Below the pieces are notes generated by a model that was not told where the DNA came from, made no database searches, and saw only the letters and a list, made by a program, of their open reading frames with translations. A stretch of DNA of 49,443 nucleotides from Candidatus Desulfaltia bathyphila. Lineage in GTDB: Bacteria; Desulfobacterota; Desulfobacteria; Desulfobacterales; ETH-SRB1. Shown one piece after another: positions 29,945 through 40,283 of this stretch (position 1 is the first letter of the stretch; each line of letters begins with the position of its first letter). A program made the position numbers and the translations under genes. The stretch is from assembly GCA_014381545.1 (NCBI GenBank), contig JACNLL010000060.1, positions 1-49,443 of the forward strand, in the 5' to 3' direction.

Positions 29945-31675
29945 CTATATTCGTCCATGTGTGTCTGTGGCTAAGAATTTATAACAGCTTTCGATATAAT
30001 AACGTGCCTTGTCTGAATCTTTAAACTTTTGAAAACATGAAATTGCTTTGTTATACTTTCCTATATTCATATAACTTATTCCCAGACAGATATGAAGCTG
30101 CTCACTGTCCGGAAATCTCTCAATACCGTCTGAAAGGGCGCTAATGGATTCCGCGTACAACCCTCTTTTTTGCTTAATGATGCCCAATCCTAAATATGCC
30201 CGATGATCAGGATAATAACCCAGGGATTTTTGATACAGTCTTTCAGCAACCCCTTCTTTATCTTTTACAGCTTCAATCCCGGAATAATCGCCATAATCAA
30301 AGGTCATTGCCAGTCTTGAACAAAAATCCGAATGCATTTTGTACAATTCCTTATCATCTATCAGTTCAACTTCATCGGCAAAACCGGAAAGATTTTCGTG
30401 GAAGTCGGTTCTGAGTTTCTTCCCAAAGGCCAGTATCAATTCACTGGATAGAGCTGGATCGGTTTCAAAGTACATAATATCTTCTACCCGCTTTAACCAG
30501 ACATTGTCTGTTTGCCTGGCTCTCTTTTTAAAATCCGAATAAAGGGCTGTTCCTGGGAATATATCAAGTATGTAAAAAATAGCGCCAAGCGGTTTGATCT
30601 CATGAATCAAATCAATGGTCTCCTGAATCGTATCCCAGTTTTCTCCAGGACAGCCATAAATAAAATAGGCCCGTGCCAGTATGCCGTACTTTGTTGTCAG
30701 CGCAAAGGCTCTTTTGATTTGATCGGTCTTAATATTTTTATTCAGGAGGTTTCTTATCTTCTCAGAACCGCTTTCCACCCCATAACTGATCTGAATACAG
30801 CCAGCCTTTCTCATCCAGTCTAAAATCTCTTCGCTTATATAATTAACTCGAGAAATTGCCACCCAGACTATTTTAAGGTCTCTTTCAATGATCTTTTTAC
30901 AAACCTTTATCACCAGATCTTTTTTAAACGTAAATGTATCATCTGAAAAATAAAAAAAGGTAACCCCCTTTTCATAAAGCAGCTCTATCTGTTTGATAAA
31001 ATAGTCGGCGGAATGGAACCTGACCTTATGTCCCCAAAGCTTGGGCGACCCGCAAAAGGTGCAGTTTCCGGGGCATCCCCGGGTCAAGGCAACATGTTGA
31101 TATTTAAAATATTTTGCAGGAATCGGCAATTTGTCGAGGTCCTGAATTTTATCAGCGGGCTTGGTCTTAACCGCCTTGCCGCCTTTTCTGAAAGCGATTC
31201 CCTTAATGTTTTTTATATTTTTATATCTAATCTTACCAGGACGATACTTTTGAAAGCATTTAATCAGGCTTAAAAAGGTATACTCACCTTCCCCTATTAC
31301 GGCAAAATCAACCTCTTTAAAATGCGTTAAAAGGTGCTTCCATAAAAAGGTGGCGCCGACCCCTCCAAAAACAATTTTTACATGTGGATTAAGCTGTTTC
31401 GCAATCCGGGCAATTTCTATGGCGCCCCAACGGTTTGCATGCACTATGGAAAAACCGATAACTTTCGGCTTCTTTATAATTAAGGTCTCTTTAATTCTTT
31501 GAGGTGTTTCATTAATATTATGCCAGTTCAGTATTTCAACATCATAATTATTCTCCTCTAACAAAGCACCGATATAGTAAAGACCGATCGGCACAAAACT
31601 AACCTCTTCTGCATGAAGCCTGTCTTCAAGGCAATAAGGATATATAAGTAGTATTTTCATTTTTGGTAAAATCAC
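29945..31675 (-). CDS. B12-binding-domain radical SAM protein with C-terminal TPR
   Basis: A protein of about 576 residues. The N-terminal cobalamin-binding-like domain (MKILLIYPYCLED, GLYYIGALLEENNYDVEILNW, IGFSIVHANRWGAIEIAR) is followed by the radical SAM core with LTRGCPGNCTFCGSPKLWG (CxxxCxxC) at about 200-215 and the YGVESGSEKIRNLLNK loop. A TPR-like C terminus (about 480-577) follows. The B12 domain lacks an obvious DxHxxG motif, as in many members of this class. Reactions in this class range from methylations to ring contractions; the substrate is unknown. GTG at 31675 has AAGGA about 5 nt upstream; ATG at 31660 is the alternative. Confidence 0.8.
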   Translation of the reverse strand: MILPKMKILLIYPYCLEDRLHAEEVSFVPIGLYYIGALLEENNYDVEILNWHNINETPQRIKETLIIKKPKVIGFSIVHANRWGAIEIARIAKQLNPHVKIVFGGVGATFLWKHLLTHFKEVDFAVIGEGEYTFLSLIKCFQKYRPGKIRYKNIKNIKGIAFRKGGKAVKTKPADKIQDLDKLPIPAKYFKYQHVALTRGCPGNCTFCGSPKLWGHKVRFHSADYFIKQIELLYEKGVTFFYFSDDTFTFKKDLVIKVCKKIIERDLKIVWVAISRVNYISEEILDWMRKAGCIQISYGVESGSEKIRNLLNKNIKTDQIKRAFALTTKYGILARAYFIYGCPGENWDTIQETIDLIHEIKPLGAIFYILDIFPGTALYSDFKKRARQTDNVWLKRVEDIMYFETDPALSSELILAFGKKLRTDFHENLSGFADEVELIDDKELYKMHSDFCSRLAMTFDYGDYSGIEAVKDKEGVAERLYQKSLGYYPDHRAYLGLGIIKQKRGLYAESISALSDGIERFPDSEQLHICLGISYMNIGKYNKAISCFQKFKDSDKARYYIESCYKFLATDTHGRI

Positions 31676-31733
31676 CACAATTCCTTTTCATCTTGTGCTT
31701 GCAACCGATTTTAAATTATTATATCCTATTTTA

Positions 31734-31907: not shown

Positions 31908-34900
31908 ATGAAGCGATTAAATCTTTCCATAGGAATTTTTAAAGTATTTGCCTGTGTTTTGATCATCTTATTGTCAGGCAGCCTTATACTGGGAGGTATT
32001 GTTTATGCGACCGAAAAGCCAGAAGTATTTGTACAGCTCGGGCATTCGAATTCTGCACTTGCCGTAGCCTTCAGTCCTGACGGCAAGTATGCTCTTTCGG
32101 GCAGTGTTGATAATACAATGAAGTTATGGGAGGTTTCAACGGGCAGGGAGGTGAAAACCTTCAGGGGACATACGAATTACGTTAACTCCGTAGCCTTCAG
32201 TCCTGACGGCAGATATGCACTTTCAGGGAGCGGTGACAAATCCCTCAAGCTCTGGAAGGTTTCAACAGGCAGGGAGATGAAAACTTTCAGAGGACATACG
32301 GATTATGTCGTCTCCGTAGCTTTCAGTCCTGACGGCAGATATGTACTGTCGGGAAGCAAAGATAATACACTTAAACTCTGGGACGTTTCGACGGGGAAAA
32401 TGGTAAAAACTTTCAGGGGACACACAGATTATGTCGTCTCCGTAGCTTTCAGTCCTGACGGCAGATATGCGCTGTCGGGAAGCAAAGACAACTCTTTGAT
32501 ACTTTGGAAGGTTTCAACAGGCAGGAGGGTAAAGACATTTAGGGGACAAAAATACATTAGTTCTGTAATCTTTACCCCAGACGGCAAATACGCCTTGTCA
32601 GGGAGCCGGGATAATACCCTGAAGTTCTGGGATATATCAACCGGCAGGGAGATAAGGTCATTCAAGTGTTCAAAGGTGCCGGACAATTTCCTCCGGGCGC
32701 ACCCGGCATCCTATATCAATTCCGTGGCCATCACCCCCGATGGTAATTATGCCCTGTCGGTAAGCGGAGATAGTACCCTGAAACTCTGGAATATTGCTAC
32801 CGGCCGGGAGACCAGAGTTTTTAAGGAACGCGTAAATAGCTGTAATTCCATAGCCTTGAGCCCTGACGGCAGGTATGTGCTATCAGGAGGCGGAGGTGAA
32901 ACATCAGCCGATCTAAAACTCTGGGAGGTCTCAACCGGCAGAGTGGTGAGGAGCTTTAAGGGTCATTCTGATTTGATAAATTCTATAGCTGTCAGTCCTG
33001 AAGGGAAATACATACTGTCGGGAAGTGGAAATGGTGTTATGCGATTGTGGAATAGATCCACCGGCAAAGTGGTAAGGAGCTTTAAGAGTCATTCACGTAT
33101 CGGATCCGTAGCTTTCAGCCCGGATGGCCGCTATGTCCTGTCGGAGAGTAAAAACGATACACTGAAGCTCTGGAAGGTCTCAACCGGCAAGGAGGTCAGA
33201 ACCTTCAGGGGTCATTCGGATTTTGTCGGGTCTATAGCCTTCAGTCCGGACGGCAGGTATGTGCTGTCGGTGAGTCGGGACAATACTCTGAAGCTATGGG
33301 ATACACAGACGGGAAAAACAAAGGCAACCAAAAAGAATATAGGCCCGATAAGGTCTGTTGTTTTTTCACCCGATGGAAAACGTGCCTTGCTCGGCGGTGG
33401 AGGATGGAAGGCTACACTGTGGCTCCTGGATATGAGAACGGGAAAACGGATTAGAAATTTTACAGGACATACGAGGGGCATTCATTCCGTAGCAATATCC
33501 CCGGACGGCAGATATGCCCTTTCTGGTAGCGACGACTATACCCTCAAACTCTGGGATATAGCCACCGGTAGGGAGATCAGAACTTTCAAGGGGCATTCCT
33601 GGGTAGTAAACTCGGTAGCTTTCAGCCCGGACGGCAGGTATGCACTCTCCGGGAGCGGAGATTATACGTTAAAGCTCTGGGATATCTCGACGGGCAACGA
33701 GATAAGGACCTTTAAGGGGCATACTTATTATATCTTTTCCGTAGCCTTCAGCCCGGACGGCAGGTATGCGCTCTCCGGGAGTTGGGACGGCACTATAAGG
33801 ATGTGGAATGTTAATACAGGCACGGAAATTGCCATGATGGTTGGATTTAAAAATGGAGACTGGGCAACGATCACCCGTGATGGCTATTTTGTGGCTTCGA
33901 AAAATGGTGCAGAGCATATTAATGTTACAATTGGTCTGAAGAGTTATACCATCGATAATTTCTTTGAGAAATTTTATAATCCGGAAATCGTGGGAAAGGT
34001 AATGAGCGGCAAGCGGGTTAAAGTAGCATCCGACATCAGGAAATTAACTTCTACACCTCCCGAAGTAAAAATAATAAACCCAAAACACGGGGCAATATTT
34101 GCCAGAAGGAATATTATAATAACCGTTCAAGCTATCGACACGGGAGGTGGTATTGATGAAATTCGGCTCTATCAGAATCTCAAGCTTATTTCCGAAGAAC
34201 AGCGCGGTGTGGCTATCACTCCTAAGAAAGGTCACGGAATAACAAAAAGATATAACGTAATACTCCTCCCGGGAACAAACGAATTCCGGGCCATTGCCCT
34301 TAACAGAGACAGAACGGAATCCAACCCGGCCATCATAGAAATCCATTCAAAGGCGGTGCATGCGTCAGCCGATTTATATATCCTTGCCGTCGGCATAAAT
34401 GAGTATAAGAACCCAAGATACAAACTCAATTATGGCAAGTCCGATGCCGAAGCATTTGTCAACGCCGTTGAGCAAAGGGGCAGGGGCATTTTCAAACATA
34501 TTTATAAACAGTTGCTTTTCGACAATCAGGCAACACGCAATTCGATAGAAGCAGCTTTCAAGCAGATTATGGCAAAAGCCGGACCCGATGACGGATTTCT
34601 TCTCTACTATGCGGGACACGGGGTAATGAGTGAAGGAGACAGAAATACACCGCCGGACTTTTATATTGCGCCGTACGATGTAACAAGGCTTTATGGCCAT
34701 GATGACATTCTGAAATCAAAGGGAATATCAGCAAAAAGAATGAAAGAATTGTGCACAAAGATAAAAGCGCAGAAGCAATTAATAATTCTGGACGCCTGTC
34801 AGTCTGGTGGGGCTATAGAATCATTTGCATTGCGGGGTGCGGCGGAAGAAAAAGCCATACTGCAACTTGCAAGGAGTGCGGGGGTTGTCGTGATGGCTGC

Positions 34901-35150
34901 AACGGGAACAGAACAGTTTGCAACCGAGTTCAAAGCGTTAGGTCATGGTGTGTTTACTTATGCTTTGCTTAAAGGGTTGGAAGGTGAAGCTGACGGCGGA
35001 TCACCTCCTGACAGAAAAATTACCGTTAAGGAACTTGAGGCGTATATAAATGATAAGGTACCTGAGTTGACCGAAAAATACCGGGGAACAGCTCAGTATC
35101 CCAATAGCTTTTCCCAGGGACAGGATTTCCCGCTCAGTATTGTGAAGTAA
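31908..35150 (+). CDS. Exported WD40-repeat caspase-family protease
   Basis: A 1080-residue protein. A signal peptide (1-37, hydrophobic ACVLIILLSGSLILGGIVYA) is followed by 14 WD40 repeats (about 45-640) of the form AFSPDGRYALSGS, enough for two seven-bladed propellers. A linker of about 200 residues with a probable Ig-like segment comes next, then a C14 caspase domain (about 825-1080). The catalytic pair is visible: His904 in LLYYAGHGV and Cys964 in ILDACQSGG. WD40-caspases are known in large-genome bacteria; activation and substrates are mostly unknown. It is followed closely by a small exported protein, probably in one operon. The signal peptide places it outside the cytoplasm. Confidence 0.88.
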   Translation: MKRLNLSIGIFKVFACVLIILLSGSLILGGIVYATEKPEVFVQLGHSNSALAVAFSPDGKYALSGSVDNTMKLWEVSTGREVKTFRGHTNYVNSVAFSPDGRYALSGSGDKSLKLWKVSTGREMKTFRGHTDYVVSVAFSPDGRYVLSGSKDNTLKLWDVSTGKMVKTFRGHTDYVVSVAFSPDGRYALSGSKDNSLILWKVSTGRRVKTFRGQKYISSVIFTPDGKYALSGSRDNTLKFWDISTGREIRSFKCSKVPDNFLRAHPASYINSVAITPDGNYALSVSGDSTLKLWNIATGRETRVFKERVNSCNSIALSPDGRYVLSGGGGETSADLKLWEVSTGRVVRSFKGHSDLINSIAVSPEGKYILSGSGNGVMRLWNRSTGKVVRSFKSHSRIGSVAFSPDGRYVLSESKNDTLKLWKVSTGKEVRTFRGHSDFVGSIAFSPDGRYVLSVSRDNTLKLWDTQTGKTKATKKNIGPIRSVVFSPDGKRALLGGGGWKATLWLLDMRTGKRIRNFTGHTRGIHSVAISPDGRYALSGSDDYTLKLWDIATGREIRTFKGHSWVVNSVAFSPDGRYALSGSGDYTLKLWDISTGNEIRTFKGHTYYIFSVAFSPDGRYALSGSWDGTIRMWNVNTGTEIAMMVGFKNGDWATITRDGYFVASKNGAEHINVTIGLKSYTIDNFFEKFYNPEIVGKVMSGKRVKVASDIRKLTSTPPEVKIINPKHGAIFARRNIIITVQAIDTGGGIDEIRLYQNLKLISEEQRGVAITPKKGHGITKRYNVILLPGTNEFRAIALNRDRTESNPAIIEIHSKAVHASADLYILAVGINEYKNPRYKLNYGKSDAEAFVNAVEQRGRGIFKHIYKQLLFDNQATRNSIEAAFKQIMAKAGPDDGFLLYYAGHGVMSEGDRNTPPDFYIAPYDVTRLYGHDDILKSKGISAKRMKELCTKIKAQKQLIILDACQSGGAIESFALRGAAEEKAILQLARSAGVVVMAATGTEQFATEFKALGHGVFTYALLKGLEGEADGGSPPDRKITVKELEAYINDKVPELTEKYRGTAQYPNSFSQGQDFPLSIVK

Positions 35151-35203
35151 AACAAAACAGCACTGCGTTGTCTGAAGTGCAAGCATTAAGGAGGAGGAGA
35201 GCG

Positions 35204-35854
35204 ATGTTTATTTTAAATTACTGTAAAACATTTTTCTTTAAGACAATACGGAATTCCTGTATTAAAAACCGTCCTATATTTTTCCCCGCTGTTATTCTTG
35301 GTGTTTTTTGTCTAATAACATCCACCGGCTATGCACAACAGACAGTTGATGTAGCCAATATGTTTCCGGAACAGCTTCTGGATCTCGAAATATCAAAATC
35401 TCAGGAAGGTGCCGAGGGTAATAAAGGGTACGGCTATTCAAAACAATACGCCTTACCAGGCGAGGAAGCTAAACCTAACAGTTATATCGGAATCGTGTTA
35501 ATCGAATTAAGCAGGCAGTCCTTGAGGCGTGATCGGCTTGGTCCGGGGGTTACAAAAAGTAAGTGGCAAAGATCACTTCAACAATACATCGATAAGGCGC
35601 CCCCCGGTACCAGTGACGATGAGATTAATAGTGTTTACAGGGCAATAGGATCGGGAGGCTGGGCCGATGACAAAAACCGTGGAAACACCTTTCGTGTAGT
35701 TATGGAGGTAAATAGACCGGGCAAGCGTCTCATTGGTTTTTTCAGATTCTACAACTATATGTGTTATGTTGACTCCATAGGAAACAAGTATGCTACATAT
35801 GAATATTTTGATGAAGCATTTCGCCTCATTCTGGCAAGATTGGGGTGGCTGTAA
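35204..35854 (+). CDS. Exported protein of unknown family, partner of the WD40-caspase
   Basis: A 216-residue protein. ATG at 35204 has an excellent ribosome site (AAGGAGGAGGAGA) and is preferred over the in-frame start at 35168. A signal peptide (PAVILGVFCLITSTGYAQQ, residues 26-44) precedes a soluble domain of about 170 residues rich in Tyr and Arg (for example GKRLIGFFRFYNYMCYVD). I do not recognise the family. The 53-nt gap after the caspase gene, the same strand and a shared export signal suggest joint expression; it could be a substrate, inhibitor or sensor (inference). Confidence 0.75.
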   Translation: MFILNYCKTFFFKTIRNSCIKNRPIFFPAVILGVFCLITSTGYAQQTVDVANMFPEQLLDLEISKSQEGAEGNKGYGYSKQYALPGEEAKPNSYIGIVLIELSRQSLRRDRLGPGVTKSKWQRSLQQYIDKAPPGTSDDEINSVYRAIGSGGWADDKNRGNTFRVVMEVNRPGKRLIGFFRFYNYMCYVDSIGNKYATYEYFDEAFRLILARLGWL

Positions 35855-35882: not shown

Positions 35883-38800
35883 TCACGCATCAAGCATTCT
35901 TTTGTGCAAACGCTCTGCTCGCAGGCAGAAGGTCTCCAGCTTTGCATTTATCAGTTGCGGGAAAGGGGAACCATCACTTTCAATTGCAAGGAAAGGCAGG
36001 TCTTCAATATTTGCCAGGATTTTTCGTAGCCGCTTATTTGTCGGGTCGGTTGCCAGTTTCCCTTCACGATTCATCATCGTGTTTAAGATAGCCTCTGACA
36101 GGCGGTTCGGCATGCAGCCGAAGGGTCCTATGGCGATTGCGCCGCATGCATGAGTGGCTACCTCGGTTATAGTGCCTCCTACTGTGAGAACAGCTTCACC
36201 CGTCAGGTTTGAAGATATATAAGGCTCAGCATTTTTTATTATTTCTTCAACGTCAAGAGGTTCTGCGTGAACAAGCCGTGACCGGGATAAAATGGATTTA
36301 ATAAGCTTTTCGTACTTAGCCATATATTTCTTTTTGATTCCAAATGCCAGCTTCTCCATTGTTGACATCTTATGTTCAGTAAGCCCTTTGTCCACGATGT
36401 AGTCGGAATATAATATCCATTCAGCAACAGGGGAACAGACAGTGGCAAATCCGCTTTTTGCCAGACGTCCTGTCAAATACTGGCGCGATATTGAATCTCT
36501 ACGAACAAATATTTCACCTATAAGGCAGATTATTGGCACCTCTTTTGGTGGAAGTTTCATTGGAATCCGTCTAAAACGTTCGGAAGTACGAACCATCTGT
36601 TTTTCCAGCTCAGAAAAGTCACCTCTTTCTATCTCTTCCAATATCAGATTCCATTCCTCATGAAATATCCTCATCCCATCTTCGGTATCTGTTGCATTGG
36701 CCAATAGCATCGACCGTATATCTTCCATAACATCGGATATTACAACAGCGCACCATGCTCTTAACTGGAAATCTTTCCCCAAACCAGCGTAAGAATTCTC
36801 TGATGTAAGCGAAAAAAGGGCTACATCCGGCAGTTCAAGCCTTTTTACAAGGTCTTCCATGAATACATAATACTGGCCGAACCGGCAAGGGCCTGATCCG
36901 GTGGGCATAAAGTAAATAAGAGCCTCATTTTCCTTTTTTATATTGTAAATATAGTTAAGCAATGTCCCTGTTGTGAGTATCAGCGGCAAACACTCCTTGC
37001 AGGAACTGTTTGCACGTCCAAGCTTCAATACCGCCTCGTCAGACGGTGGATGGGCAATTGCATTGAACCCAAAACCGCGAAATACCGCTGCCAGAGATTC
37101 AGAGGAAATTTTGCCCATAGACGGAAACATAAGGGTCACACGTGGGTCGGTGACCGGCAGTGTTTCGCCGGAAGATGTCACCAGGTTAACCCTTCCATTT
37201 CCCATTTCCAGACGGGCAGGAACAAAAGCCCGTTTCTTCTGGACGATCACCTTCTCTGCCAGAAGTTGCCTGTAAGCTGCGACAATATCAAGAAACGCCT
37301 CAACCCTGGTCTCAAGGCCGGCATCTGCCGTGTGACTGTCCAGCTCGAGGGTCAGCGATGGTTTTTGACCCATAATGCTCCTGAAATATCCGACTATAAA
37401 TGAATCCGGCCCGCAGGAAAAGTTTGTAATATAAGTTCCAAACAGTTGAGGATGCCTCTTAACAACTCTTGCCGCCTTCAATATGGTCTGGCCCATTCCC
37501 CAGTACATATGGCGCTTTGTTTTCTCATCATCAAATGTAAGAAAATCAAACGGCATTACCAGAATGCCCCTTGATGCAAGCTTGTTTGGAATTCCCATAT
37601 GCGCTTCTTTAACAAATCCGTTGTAAGGCCGGGCAAATATCACCACCGCTGTTTTATCCGGATTTTTTTCCAGATCTTCAAGGGCTTTATCGCCGATTTT
37701 TTTCATCTCGGTCATGCATTCCATCTGTTTTTTCATGGCCTTCTGAAAAGCCTTTTTAGCCTCTTTTTTTCCAATCCCCATTTTTACAGCGGTTTCGACA
37801 AGAGGCTTTCCTGCGGTCTCCAGCCCTTCTGTCAGGTCAAGCAGCGGGGTTAATACTTTTATCCCTCTGACTCTCAGTTCATCCAGTTTTTTCCTGAATG
37901 CGCTCCTTAAAAAAAAGGTTTCACCCTGAACAAAAGGACAAACCTGCGAGCTTGCGTAACCGTTTTGGGCCGGAACAGCCTTAAAGTGGGGCAGGAATAT
38001 AAACTCCGGAGGATTTTCCATATAAATAAGGGAATGGAAAAAACCATGGGTCAGTTCTGCAGGATAGCAAAAGGCCGCCTCTTTCTGATCCATTCCTTTT
38101 TTAGAAGGAAAATCAGGCACAACCGGCTCAAACCCTAATTCGGTGAAAAACGTGGAATAAAGTGGATAAAAAGTATTAACCAGGAAACTCCTGTTTATTC
38201 CGATTCTCCCCCTGGGCTTTTTTCCGCCACCCTCCGGTAGTTTGCCTCCATACTTATCAAAAATTAATTGCTGCCGGACACGAACAAGGTCCAGATTTTC
38301 CACATCGTATTTCACCTTGTTCCGCAAATTATAATATCTGTTGCAGGCTCCGCCAAACGGATATTTCTTTCCTTCCAGCTTGATTAAAGCTATATTGCAG
38401 CGACGGTCACATTTTTCCTTTCCGCCTTTGCATATAAACGATTTTCCGTATTGCACCTCACGGTTAAGCAGAGCATTTAGGTCAAAGATTTTCTTTTCCA
38501 TCAAACCTGTTTCAATCCTTTTCTTGACCTCAAGCGCAACACCAAAAGCGCCCATAAGCCCCGGCTCAGGAGGAACGACTATCGGCTTGCCCACAAGCGC
38601 AGCCATGGCAAAGGGAACCGCCCTGTTATAGCAGACACCTCCCTGCATAAAGACCTTCTCTCCCACCGGCTTATTGCCCTTGACCCTGTTTGAATAGTTC
38701 ATACAAATAGAATACACCAGACCCGCGATAATATCCTCGTGCTTCACACCTTCGTGAATGGCATTCTTAATGTCGGATGCAATAAATGCAGCGCACTGGT

Positions 38801-40283
38801 CATTAAAATTTGGGGGAGTTTTGCCCTTAAATGCAATGTCGGCAATATCCTCCATTTTCACTCCAAGGGTCTCGTATGCCGACTCTTCCAGAAAAGAACC
38901 TGTGCCGGCAGAACAGGCTTCATTCATCGCATAATCGGATGGCACGGCATTTGTGATATAGGTATATTTTGCATCCTGTCCACCTATCTCAAATATTGTG
39001 TCCACGCTGGAATCGAAATATACCGCCGCAGTCGCGTGGGCAATTATCTCGTTGATAACCCCTTTTGTAAGAGCATGGAGGCCGGCTATCTGGCGGCCGG
39101 AGCCGGTAACACCAAGCCCCGTTATACTTATCTTGTCAGGATTTATCTTTTCACTTATCTGTTCAAGAATAGAACCATAACACTTACGGGAAGCTCCAAC
39201 AGGATCACCGTCGGTACGCAGATAAATGGACGCAAGAATTGCATCGTCTTCGATCCGCAAAAGAACCGCCTTTGTTGTTGTTGAACCGACATCAAGCCCC
39301 AGTATGCATTCATTCCCCTGCCGGACATCCCCCATCGCAACAGTTTTGAATTCAACCATTTCTTTAAAATCCATAAGGGGCATAAGTGTGTCAAATGATG
39401 TAGCCTCTGTCCTTAATAAATCCGACATTCCAGGGAATGCAGCGGTCTCATTTTCCAAAGCCCAGAGAGAGGCTCCAAGAGCTTCGAAATACGGGGCTTC
39501 CTCAGGAACAATAAGGCCGGTAATATCTTTGCGCAGGTACTCAATCATCATCCGGTTGAGCGCAGTGCCCCCGACAATCATAATGTTCTTCCTTTGGACC
39601 TTTTTTAACAGCTCAAGTATTTTCTCCGCCATCATTTTGCAAAGTCCGGCGGTTACCTTTGATTTGGGAATGCCTTTATTGGTTGCATGTGTGCAGTCAG
39701 ACTTGCAAAAGACCGAACAACGCCCCGAAAGCTGATACGGCTCTTCCGTAACTGCCCACTGGGCCGCCTCTTCCAGCGTTACCTTCATCCTGCGCAGTTG
39801 CTGAAGAAAGAATTCACCGGTTCCGGATGCGCACTTGTTGCCGGTCAAAACATTGGATATCTGCCCCTGACCGTCCAAAATATATATCATGAAGGTCTCC
39901 CCGCCTGCGGAAACAACTGCCGGACATGCAATATCAGCGGGTTTGACAAAACGGTATGCGTATTCCACGGTTTCCGGTTCAGATATGGATGACAGGTTTA
40001 CAAAGTTGCGAAATCTCCTTCCTGTCACGGCAATCCTGTCGTATGAATTCATATCCAGCGACTTGAGAGCTGAAAGCAATGTTTGCTTTGGATTTCCCTC
40101 GTGTGAATGAAGTAAATATTTAAGCACACGGGGCTTTATTTTGTTTTCCCCATCCTTGCCCTGCTCAAGTTCCATCCAGACAAGTGATACTGTAGATGCC
40201 CCCAGGCATATCCCCAGCGAACTTATCTTGCCGGACATCTGCCTTTTTTGACCTGATTGCTTGTTTAAATTTTTACTTTGCAT
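35883..40283 (-). CDS. Giant CoA-dehydratase activase (two BcrAD/BadFG domains plus DUF2229)
   Basis: A 1466-residue protein. The first ASKHA ATPase domain (about 20-310) holds NKCASGTGEFFLQQLRRMKV with further cysteines in CSVFCKSDCTHATNKG. The second (about 325-610) starts LGLDVGSTTTKAVLL and has EIGGQDAKYTYI and NEACSAGTGSFLEE. A DUF2229 region follows (about 700-900: RIGINRSFLVNTFYPLYSTF, then CYPAEL). The C-terminal third resembles the dehydratase-subunit (HgdB-like) fold. In 2-hydroxyacyl-CoA dehydratase and benzoyl-CoA reductase systems the ATPase drives an electron into the catalytic subunit. Here activator and acceptor-like parts are fused, and the substrate is unknown. No dehydratase genes are adjacent. 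Confidence 0.85.
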   Translation of the reverse strand: MQSKNLNKQSGQKRQMSGKISSLGICLGASTVSLVWMELEQGKDGENKIKPRVLKYLLHSHEGNPKQTLLSALKSLDMNSYDRIAVTGRRFRNFVNLSSISEPETVEYAYRFVKPADIACPAVVSAGGETFMIYILDGQGQISNVLTGNKCASGTGEFFLQQLRRMKVTLEEAAQWAVTEEPYQLSGRCSVFCKSDCTHATNKGIPKSKVTAGLCKMMAEKILELLKKVQRKNIMIVGGTALNRMMIEYLRKDITGLIVPEEAPYFEALGASLWALENETAAFPGMSDLLRTEATSFDTLMPLMDFKEMVEFKTVAMGDVRQGNECILGLDVGSTTTKAVLLRIEDDAILASIYLRTDGDPVGASRKCYGSILEQISEKINPDKISITGLGVTGSGRQIAGLHALTKGVINEIIAHATAAVYFDSSVDTIFEIGGQDAKYTYITNAVPSDYAMNEACSAGTGSFLEESAYETLGVKMEDIADIAFKGKTPPNFNDQCAAFIASDIKNAIHEGVKHEDIIAGLVYSICMNYSNRVKGNKPVGEKVFMQGGVCYNRAVPFAMAALVGKPIVVPPEPGLMGAFGVALEVKKRIETGLMEKKIFDLNALLNREVQYGKSFICKGGKEKCDRRCNIALIKLEGKKYPFGGACNRYYNLRNKVKYDVENLDLVRVRQQLIFDKYGGKLPEGGGKKPRGRIGINRSFLVNTFYPLYSTFFTELGFEPVVPDFPSKKGMDQKEAAFCYPAELTHGFFHSLIYMENPPEFIFLPHFKAVPAQNGYASSQVCPFVQGETFFLRSAFRKKLDELRVRGIKVLTPLLDLTEGLETAGKPLVETAVKMGIGKKEAKKAFQKAMKKQMECMTEMKKIGDKALEDLEKNPDKTAVVIFARPYNGFVKEAHMGIPNKLASRGILVMPFDFLTFDDEKTKRHMYWGMGQTILKAARVVKRHPQLFGTYITNFSCGPDSFIVGYFRSIMGQKPSLTLELDSHTADAGLETRVEAFLDIVAAYRQLLAEKVIVQKKRAFVPARLEMGNGRVNLVTSSGETLPVTDPRVTLMFPSMGKISSESLAAVFRGFGFNAIAHPPSDEAVLKLGRANSSCKECLPLILTTGTLLNYIYNIKKENEALIYFMPTGSGPCRFGQYYVFMEDLVKRLELPDVALFSLTSENSYAGLGKDFQLRAWCAVVISDVMEDIRSMLLANATDTEDGMRIFHEEWNLILEEIERGDFSELEKQMVRTSERFRRIPMKLPPKEVPIICLIGEIFVRRDSISRQYLTGRLAKSGFATVCSPVAEWILYSDYIVDKGLTEHKMSTMEKLAFGIKKKYMAKYEKLIKSILSRSRLVHAEPLDVEEIIKNAEPYISSNLTGEAVLTVGGTITEVATHACGAIAIGPFGCMPNRLSEAILNTMMNREGKLATDPTNKRLRKILANIEDLPFLAIESDGSPFPQLINAKLETFCLRAERLHKRMLDA

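Follow-up and report, generated by a model that had tools for sequence, protein, structure and literature searches.

A WD40-Ig-caspase with a predicted export signal and its orphan neighbour gene in Candidatus Desulfaltia bathyphila

WD40 repeats are the most frequent co-domain of prokaryotic metacaspases, occurring in 73 of 671 (Asplund-Samuelsson et al. 2012, PMC3501461); the accessible part of that survey also describes N-terminal helices that are possibly signal peptides, suggests extracellular roles and reports diverse operons. Several cyanobacterial caspase homologues (cbMC-beta) are listed with WD40(14) in the available portion of PMC2853523. Because WD40 metacaspases, including WD40(14) forms, are on record, the kind of protein considered here is already known. 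We analyzed a locus on contig C85 of the draft genome of Candidatus Desulfaltia bathyphila (2.07 Mb, 97% complete); the whole contig of 49,443 nucleotides is referred to below as the window. The locus comprises two genes on the + strand, a gene for a 1080-aa WD40-Ig-caspase with a predicted export signal (31908..35150) and, after an intergenic gap of 53 nt, a gene of 216 codons (35204..35854, ATG at 35204 and stop at 35854) whose product has a signal-peptide-like N-terminus and belongs to no recognised family, hereafter the orphan. Both genes and their spacing had been reported at these positions by a first-pass annotation and were confirmed. To our knowledge, the substrates of exported bacterial caspases and their control outside the cytoplasm are an open question.

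The explanation that we favour, with moderate confidence, is an extracytoplasmic orthocaspase specific for Arg or Lys, docked by its propellers and accompanied by the orphan as a lineage-specific accessory; here we infer the periplasmic location, the cleavage, the docking and the functional link. The caspase would be exported to the periplasm or cell surface, where its two N-terminal propellers would form a platform on which a protein or a ligand at the surface docks, with the Ig-like domain as a spacer, and the C-terminal caspase domain would cut after Arg or Lys. The orphan would probably share a transcript with the caspase, be translated at a higher rate and reach the same compartment by export. 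There it may act as a lineage-specific accessory that probably evolves fast; its most plausible role would be to restrain the protease or to serve as its substrate.

The domain content of the caspase agrees with this proposal. Its signal peptide (residues 1-34, 31908..32009) has a 19-residue Kyte-Doolittle hydrophobicity of 2.62 and a predicted cleavage after VYA, a point read off the sequence, and was accepted by both a loose and a strict signal rule. A second membrane span is not indicated, because no 19-residue segment past residue 40 exceeds 1.29. The signal peptide proposed in the first-pass annotation therefore stands, and the finding that could have overturned its reading, a caspase without an export signal, was not made. 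The annotated 14 WD40 repeats were likewise recovered as 14 [ST]P[DE]G blade motifs spaced by 41 to 53 aa (32040..33857, limits approximate); the Pfam WD40 model matches in 13 stretches (E 1.7e-150). From the blade count, a double propeller with two seven-bladed units is most likely. The following Ig/Fn3-like spacer (34059..34349, limits approximate) matches Pfam Big_7 at 26.6 bits against a cut-off of 24.1, shows strands in the predicted model and has Fn3-like matches in the PDB. The caspase domain itself (Peptidase_C14, 34383..35114) reaches 65 bits with PF00656 (cut-off 21.4). An AlphaFold model of residues 654-1080 has a mean pLDDT of 85.7, and Foldseek places it closest to GSU0716 (3bij), followed by MALT1 paracaspase and metacaspase 9.

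The catalytic residues His904 (34617..34619) and Cys964 (34797..34799), which the first-pass annotation had described as an intact pair, are numbered exactly and are invariant in all 39 sequences of an alignment made of the window caspase and 38 hand-chosen sequences from relatives' loci. D846 and D962 are equally invariant, 39 of 39, and correspond to Asp95 and Asp211 of the metacaspase MCA2. When MCA2 is aligned by profile, D846 coincides with the Asp after Cys-Cys-Asn, which by our count is Asp95 given a 20-residue construct offset. This alignment stops before the catalytic Cys, and D962 was placed by its position two before Cys964, as Asp211 stands relative to the catalytic Cys of MCA2, which we take to be Cys213. 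In the accessible text of PMC6426788, Asp95 and Asp211 are the acids that accommodate basic residues. Because both have counterparts in the window caspase, cleavage after Arg or Lys is predicted. A caspase-fold p20 domain, a His-Cys dyad and an acidic S1 pocket, the marks of family C14 and of prokaryotic orthocaspases, are thus all found, and so are the traits taken here to mark the exported WD40-caspase group, namely an export signal, propellers, an Ig-like segment and a C-terminal caspase. With the model for EACC1-associated caspases (NCBIfam NF047832) the protein scores 77.6 bits, below the curated cut-off of 140. In PADLOC the caspase part matches PDLC02987 at 6.3e-20; a single caspase model does not by itself define a defence system.

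Relatives of the caspase are numerous. When the C-terminal 427 aa were used as a query, matches occurred in 55 of 94 genomes, the own genome included; as the query spans the caspase domain, some of these matches are non-WD40 proteins. A scan of genome contigs with a single peptide pattern, derived from ten aligned sequences, gave at least 564 related stretches; the 80 best of these, from 79 loci, were retained. The retained matches come from Bacteroidota, Nitrospirae, deltaproteobacteria, KSB1 and others. A complete caspase ORF was present at 64 of the 79 loci, the longest candidate being taken, so that at a few loci (L107, L116) it is the tandem neighbour of the matched one. An export-like N-terminus was called by the loose rule in 58 of the 64 complete relatives, leaving six without a signal, compared with 121 of 245 background ORFs; by the strict rule it was called in 42 of 64 compared with 81 of 245. 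These rules are home-made and lenient, and the loose one called 4 of 13 other window genes, at least some of them apparently falsely. A Pfam scan of the first 45 complete relatives found Peptidase_C14 in all 45, a THOC3-type WD40 propeller in 41 and the WD40 repeat model in 38. Judged by sequence, exported propeller-caspases are a common and broad, though little studied, group, and the window caspase is an ordinary member of it. The premise that caspase homologues are usually cytoplasmic, which had made export appear unusual at this locus, is not supported by these relatives. What remains of the envelope-switch proposal of the first-pass annotation is an exported and apparently intact caspase with 14 blades and a close co-directional gene, to which the pocket residues add a predicted preference for basic residues.

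For the second gene, codon usage supports a real gene: the bias of 0.148 per codon exceeds the 99th percentile (0.127) of 265 off-frame chunks, whose maximum is 0.231, and falls among the values of 53 true-gene chunks (0.039 at minimum, 0.090 at the 5th and 0.201 at the 25th percentile). Its ribosome-binding site, aaggaggaggag (35188..35199, + strand), was annotated as very strong and proved to be so, with a Shine-Dalgarno (SD) duplex energy of -12.8 kcal/mol that ties for the strongest of 23 window starts tested; the caspase start has -3.5. The N-terminus opens with a positively charged n-region some 23 residues long, continues with a hydrophobic stretch and then GYA, and forms a probable signal peptide (residues 1-44, 35204..35335) under the loose rule. 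This asymmetry of the two ribosome sites, the same predicted compartment and the small size of the orphan would all suit a periplasmic inhibitor or immunity-type partner that is made in excess and holds the protease in check. We nevertheless regard such an inhibitor as unlikely, given that the orphan has neither a family match nor a usable model and that no relative of it was found beside the other caspases examined.

The two genes form an isolated + strand unit, flanked by - strand genes at 29945-31678 and 35883-40283; the former, starting at 31678, is divergent and the latter convergent. A consensus scan found terminator-like sites at chance level (five, against 4.2 in shuffled sequences) and saw none on the + strand in the interval between caspase and orphan. 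From this layout we infer co-transcription of the two genes.

Searches for relatives of the orphan gave a nearly empty result. No family was found in Pfam, NCBIfam, PADLOC or PHROGs, and the best PDB match (E 1.1) was a designed protein and no relative, in keeping with the first-pass description of an unrecognised family. Scans of plasmids, viral contigs and genome contigs were empty; the contig scans detect close relatives only. Genome searches at E 0.001, in overlapping samples drawn around the same genome, returned only the orphan itself in 94 surrounding genomes and in 345 genomes of the phylum, and itself plus one genome, G288, in 389 genomes of the class; among 145 genomes around G288, only G288 matched. 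When the order search of 389 genomes was extended to E up to 1, 47 genomes matched, and again only the orphan itself and G288 reached 0.001. The other 45 were set aside as chance, their matches being short and weak (best 0.004) and many of them interrupted by stops. Four of these 45 had phmmer E-values of 6e-4 to 0.008, values that are biased because their loci had been fetched for weak matching; two of the four (L060 and L065) are near-copies, and no motif common with the rest was seen on reading the alignments.

The match in G288 (L073:633-746, contig C439) covers 39 residues of the orphan's C-terminus at 72% identity, in an open frame of only 50 aa. The remainder of the orphan has no significant match on this 4.4-kb contig. 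Between the window and G288, changes at the three codon positions number 5, 4 and 18 in 38 codons. Because they fall mainly on third positions, we read the stretch as a decayed coding relative and rejected a DNA repeat. In a DNA-level check of 291 genomes at E 0.01, five matched: that of the window, G288 over 112 columns, and a further three over short stretches of 21 to 31 bases. The relic adjoins an unrelated lysine-rich ORF.

A number of observations weigh against a dedicated pairing of caspase and orphan. The contig of the G288 relic has no caspase match, which leans slightly against such a partnership; the sole caspase match in that genome is weak (9e-4) and lies on a different contig. 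No second genome holding both genes was found among the genomes searched, and conservation therefore gives the functional link no support. Directly behind the caspase, a small export-like gene was present in only 13 of 73 relatives (one of the 13 being a 'tm' call), and none of these 13 is among the orphan matches. In addition, the signal peptide of the orphan is less certain than that of the caspase, as the strict rule rejects it; this part of the first-pass annotation holds by the loose rule only. Promoter-like sites also stay at chance level in the consensus scan, with 8 found and 8.1 expected from shuffles. Overall, the genes neighbouring the relatives' caspases are varied and mostly unrelated, falling into small clusters and many singletons, and on these counts we rejected the idea that the caspase family generally has a small exported neighbour.

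These observations give real weight to a different account, in which the orphan is an unrelated lineage-specific gene that came to lie behind the caspase by chance, and the caspase works without it, as those of its relatives must. The lack of orphan relatives in the searches made, the variety of neighbours and the caspase-free contig of the relic all fit. The 53-nt gap, the shared strand, the isolated two-gene unit, the export-like N-termini of both products and the strong SD site are harder to reconcile with it, and we hold a chance neighbourhood to be a serious possibility while judging it somewhat improbable. The switch as first annotated, a protease with a partner dedicated to it, is possible; the conservation data lend it nothing.

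Structural leads on the orphan were followed with a single-sequence prediction of poor quality (mean pLDDT 51). Foldseek gave no match at E <= 0.001 with this model. The top row of VIA-align was the periplasmic domain of ToxS, and the ToxS/VtrC-like sensor fold scored Z 5.9 and 3.3, a very weak lead, as Z below 8 may reflect a common arrangement only. The leads to ToxS, StARkin, Whirly and EagT6 were not used, the model being poor. The ToxS row, together with a basic stretch in the orphan, SRQSLRRDRLGPGVTKSKWQR, would suit a role as a substrate of an Arg/Lys caspase or as a ligand-sensing periplasmic subunit. Basic stretches are common, however, and with such a model and no Foldseek match this role appears doubtful.

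A different linkage emerged from the genome of the window itself, where, for four of the five caspase genes, a DUF4384 gene is found no more than 2.5 kb away, on contigs C107 (two), C97 and C66. The exception is the caspase of C85, a contig that has no DUF4384 match, hence none within 5 kb of the window caspase. Of the other four caspases (loci L048, L049 and L050), the loose rule calls three export-like at the N-terminus. A fourth DUF4384 gene is located on C20, with no caspase there. At their first start, the DUF4384 proteins encoded on C107, C97 and C20 have an export-like N-terminus; that of C66 has one only with a start 51 codons later. Across 38 genomes, 30 of 49 DUF4384 matches have a caspase match no further than 5 kb away, where at most 0.76 would be expected, and 28 of 102 caspase matches have a DUF4384 match within that distance. 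Seven of the 30 pairs share one open frame and are fusions. With fusions removed, DUF4384 is a true neighbour in 23 of 42 cases, or 14 of 32 without G022, a genome rich in both. Within the window caspase's own family, the count is 10 of 21, fusions not separated. Exported neighbours of related caspases include DUF4384 proteins, some with an FlgT_N-like start, although none of these starts exceeds the cut-off (best 26.7 bits versus 28.8). In accessible passages that mention both caspases and DUF4384 (PMC7475262 among the sources), DUF4384 forms part of the caspase homologues themselves, in alphaproteobacteria or cyanobacteria, and is not a neighbour gene there. We consider the linkage of caspases to DUF4384 better supported than that of the caspase to the orphan. 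In this bacterial group, DUF4384 genes, many of them encoding exported proteins, are frequent neighbours of caspase genes, which points to DUF4384 as a partner family that would serve the study of this biology better than the orphan.

A further reading, favoured by these counts, is that the window caspase acts with the DUF4384 protein encoded on C20, as some relatives do in cis, leaving the orphan as a local replacement or bystander. In G013 (L037, contig C43), too, an export-like DUF4384 protein whose N-terminus resembles that of C20 is encoded directly upstream of three tandem exported propeller-type caspases. On the other hand, the removal of fusions lowers the counts, in G001, G002 and G004 the contig that carries the C20-type DUF4384 gene lacks a caspase match, and binding is purely conjectural; we rate this arrangement as quite improbable. 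Further layouts were noted at related loci. Between the second and third caspase of L037 lies a gene for a 198-aa export-like protein with no Pfam family. At L162:6626-12699, L163:1005-4499 and L161:1413-4882, lipoprotein-like caspases stand in tandem with a gene for an export-like DUF4384 protein behind them, in a layout that resembles C107. At L049:7964-10476 (C97), the caspase ORF has no signal of its own, and immediately upstream of it a different frame holds the end of a small lipoprotein-like ORF; these may be two genes or a frameshift.

The boldest reading of the locus is a self-contained extracytoplasmic cassette, in which a propeller-caspase is joined by a rapidly evolving, lineage-specific exported protein that serves as its cognate inhibitor or cleavable signal. 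We think this very unlikely; if it were true, each lineage would have a key of its own to a proteolytic switch in the envelope. The locus is a compact two-gene unit, and both proteins can be made and tested.

A literature search, thin on subscription journals, gave no description of the two-gene caspase-orphan unit. Among described proteins, bacterial WD40 metacaspases or orthocaspases share with the window caspase a caspase p20 domain and WD40 repeats, 14 of them in several cyanobacterial ones according to the portion of PMC2853523 available. In the cyanobacterial cases covered by the accessible part of PMC7475262, the caspase is N-terminal and the WD40 region C-terminal, with a membrane span between them, whereas the window caspase has the reverse order, an Ig spacer and no internal span, the whole chain being predicted as exported. 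The closest solved fold to the caspase part is GSU0716 of Geobacter sulfurreducens (3bij; Foldseek E 3.4e-12, profile E 2.1e-6), which is 19-20% identical over the aligned part and, with 262-265 modelled residues, too short for propellers. The Type I metacaspase MCA2 of Trypanosoma brucei (4afr) has counterparts of both its acidic S1-pocket residues in D846 and D962; unlike the window caspase, its solved chain of 367 residues leaves no room for propellers. Finally, the caspase-DUF4384 neighbourhoods of the same genome likewise contain caspase genes, three of four with export-like products, and the window locus carries the orphan in place of DUF4384.

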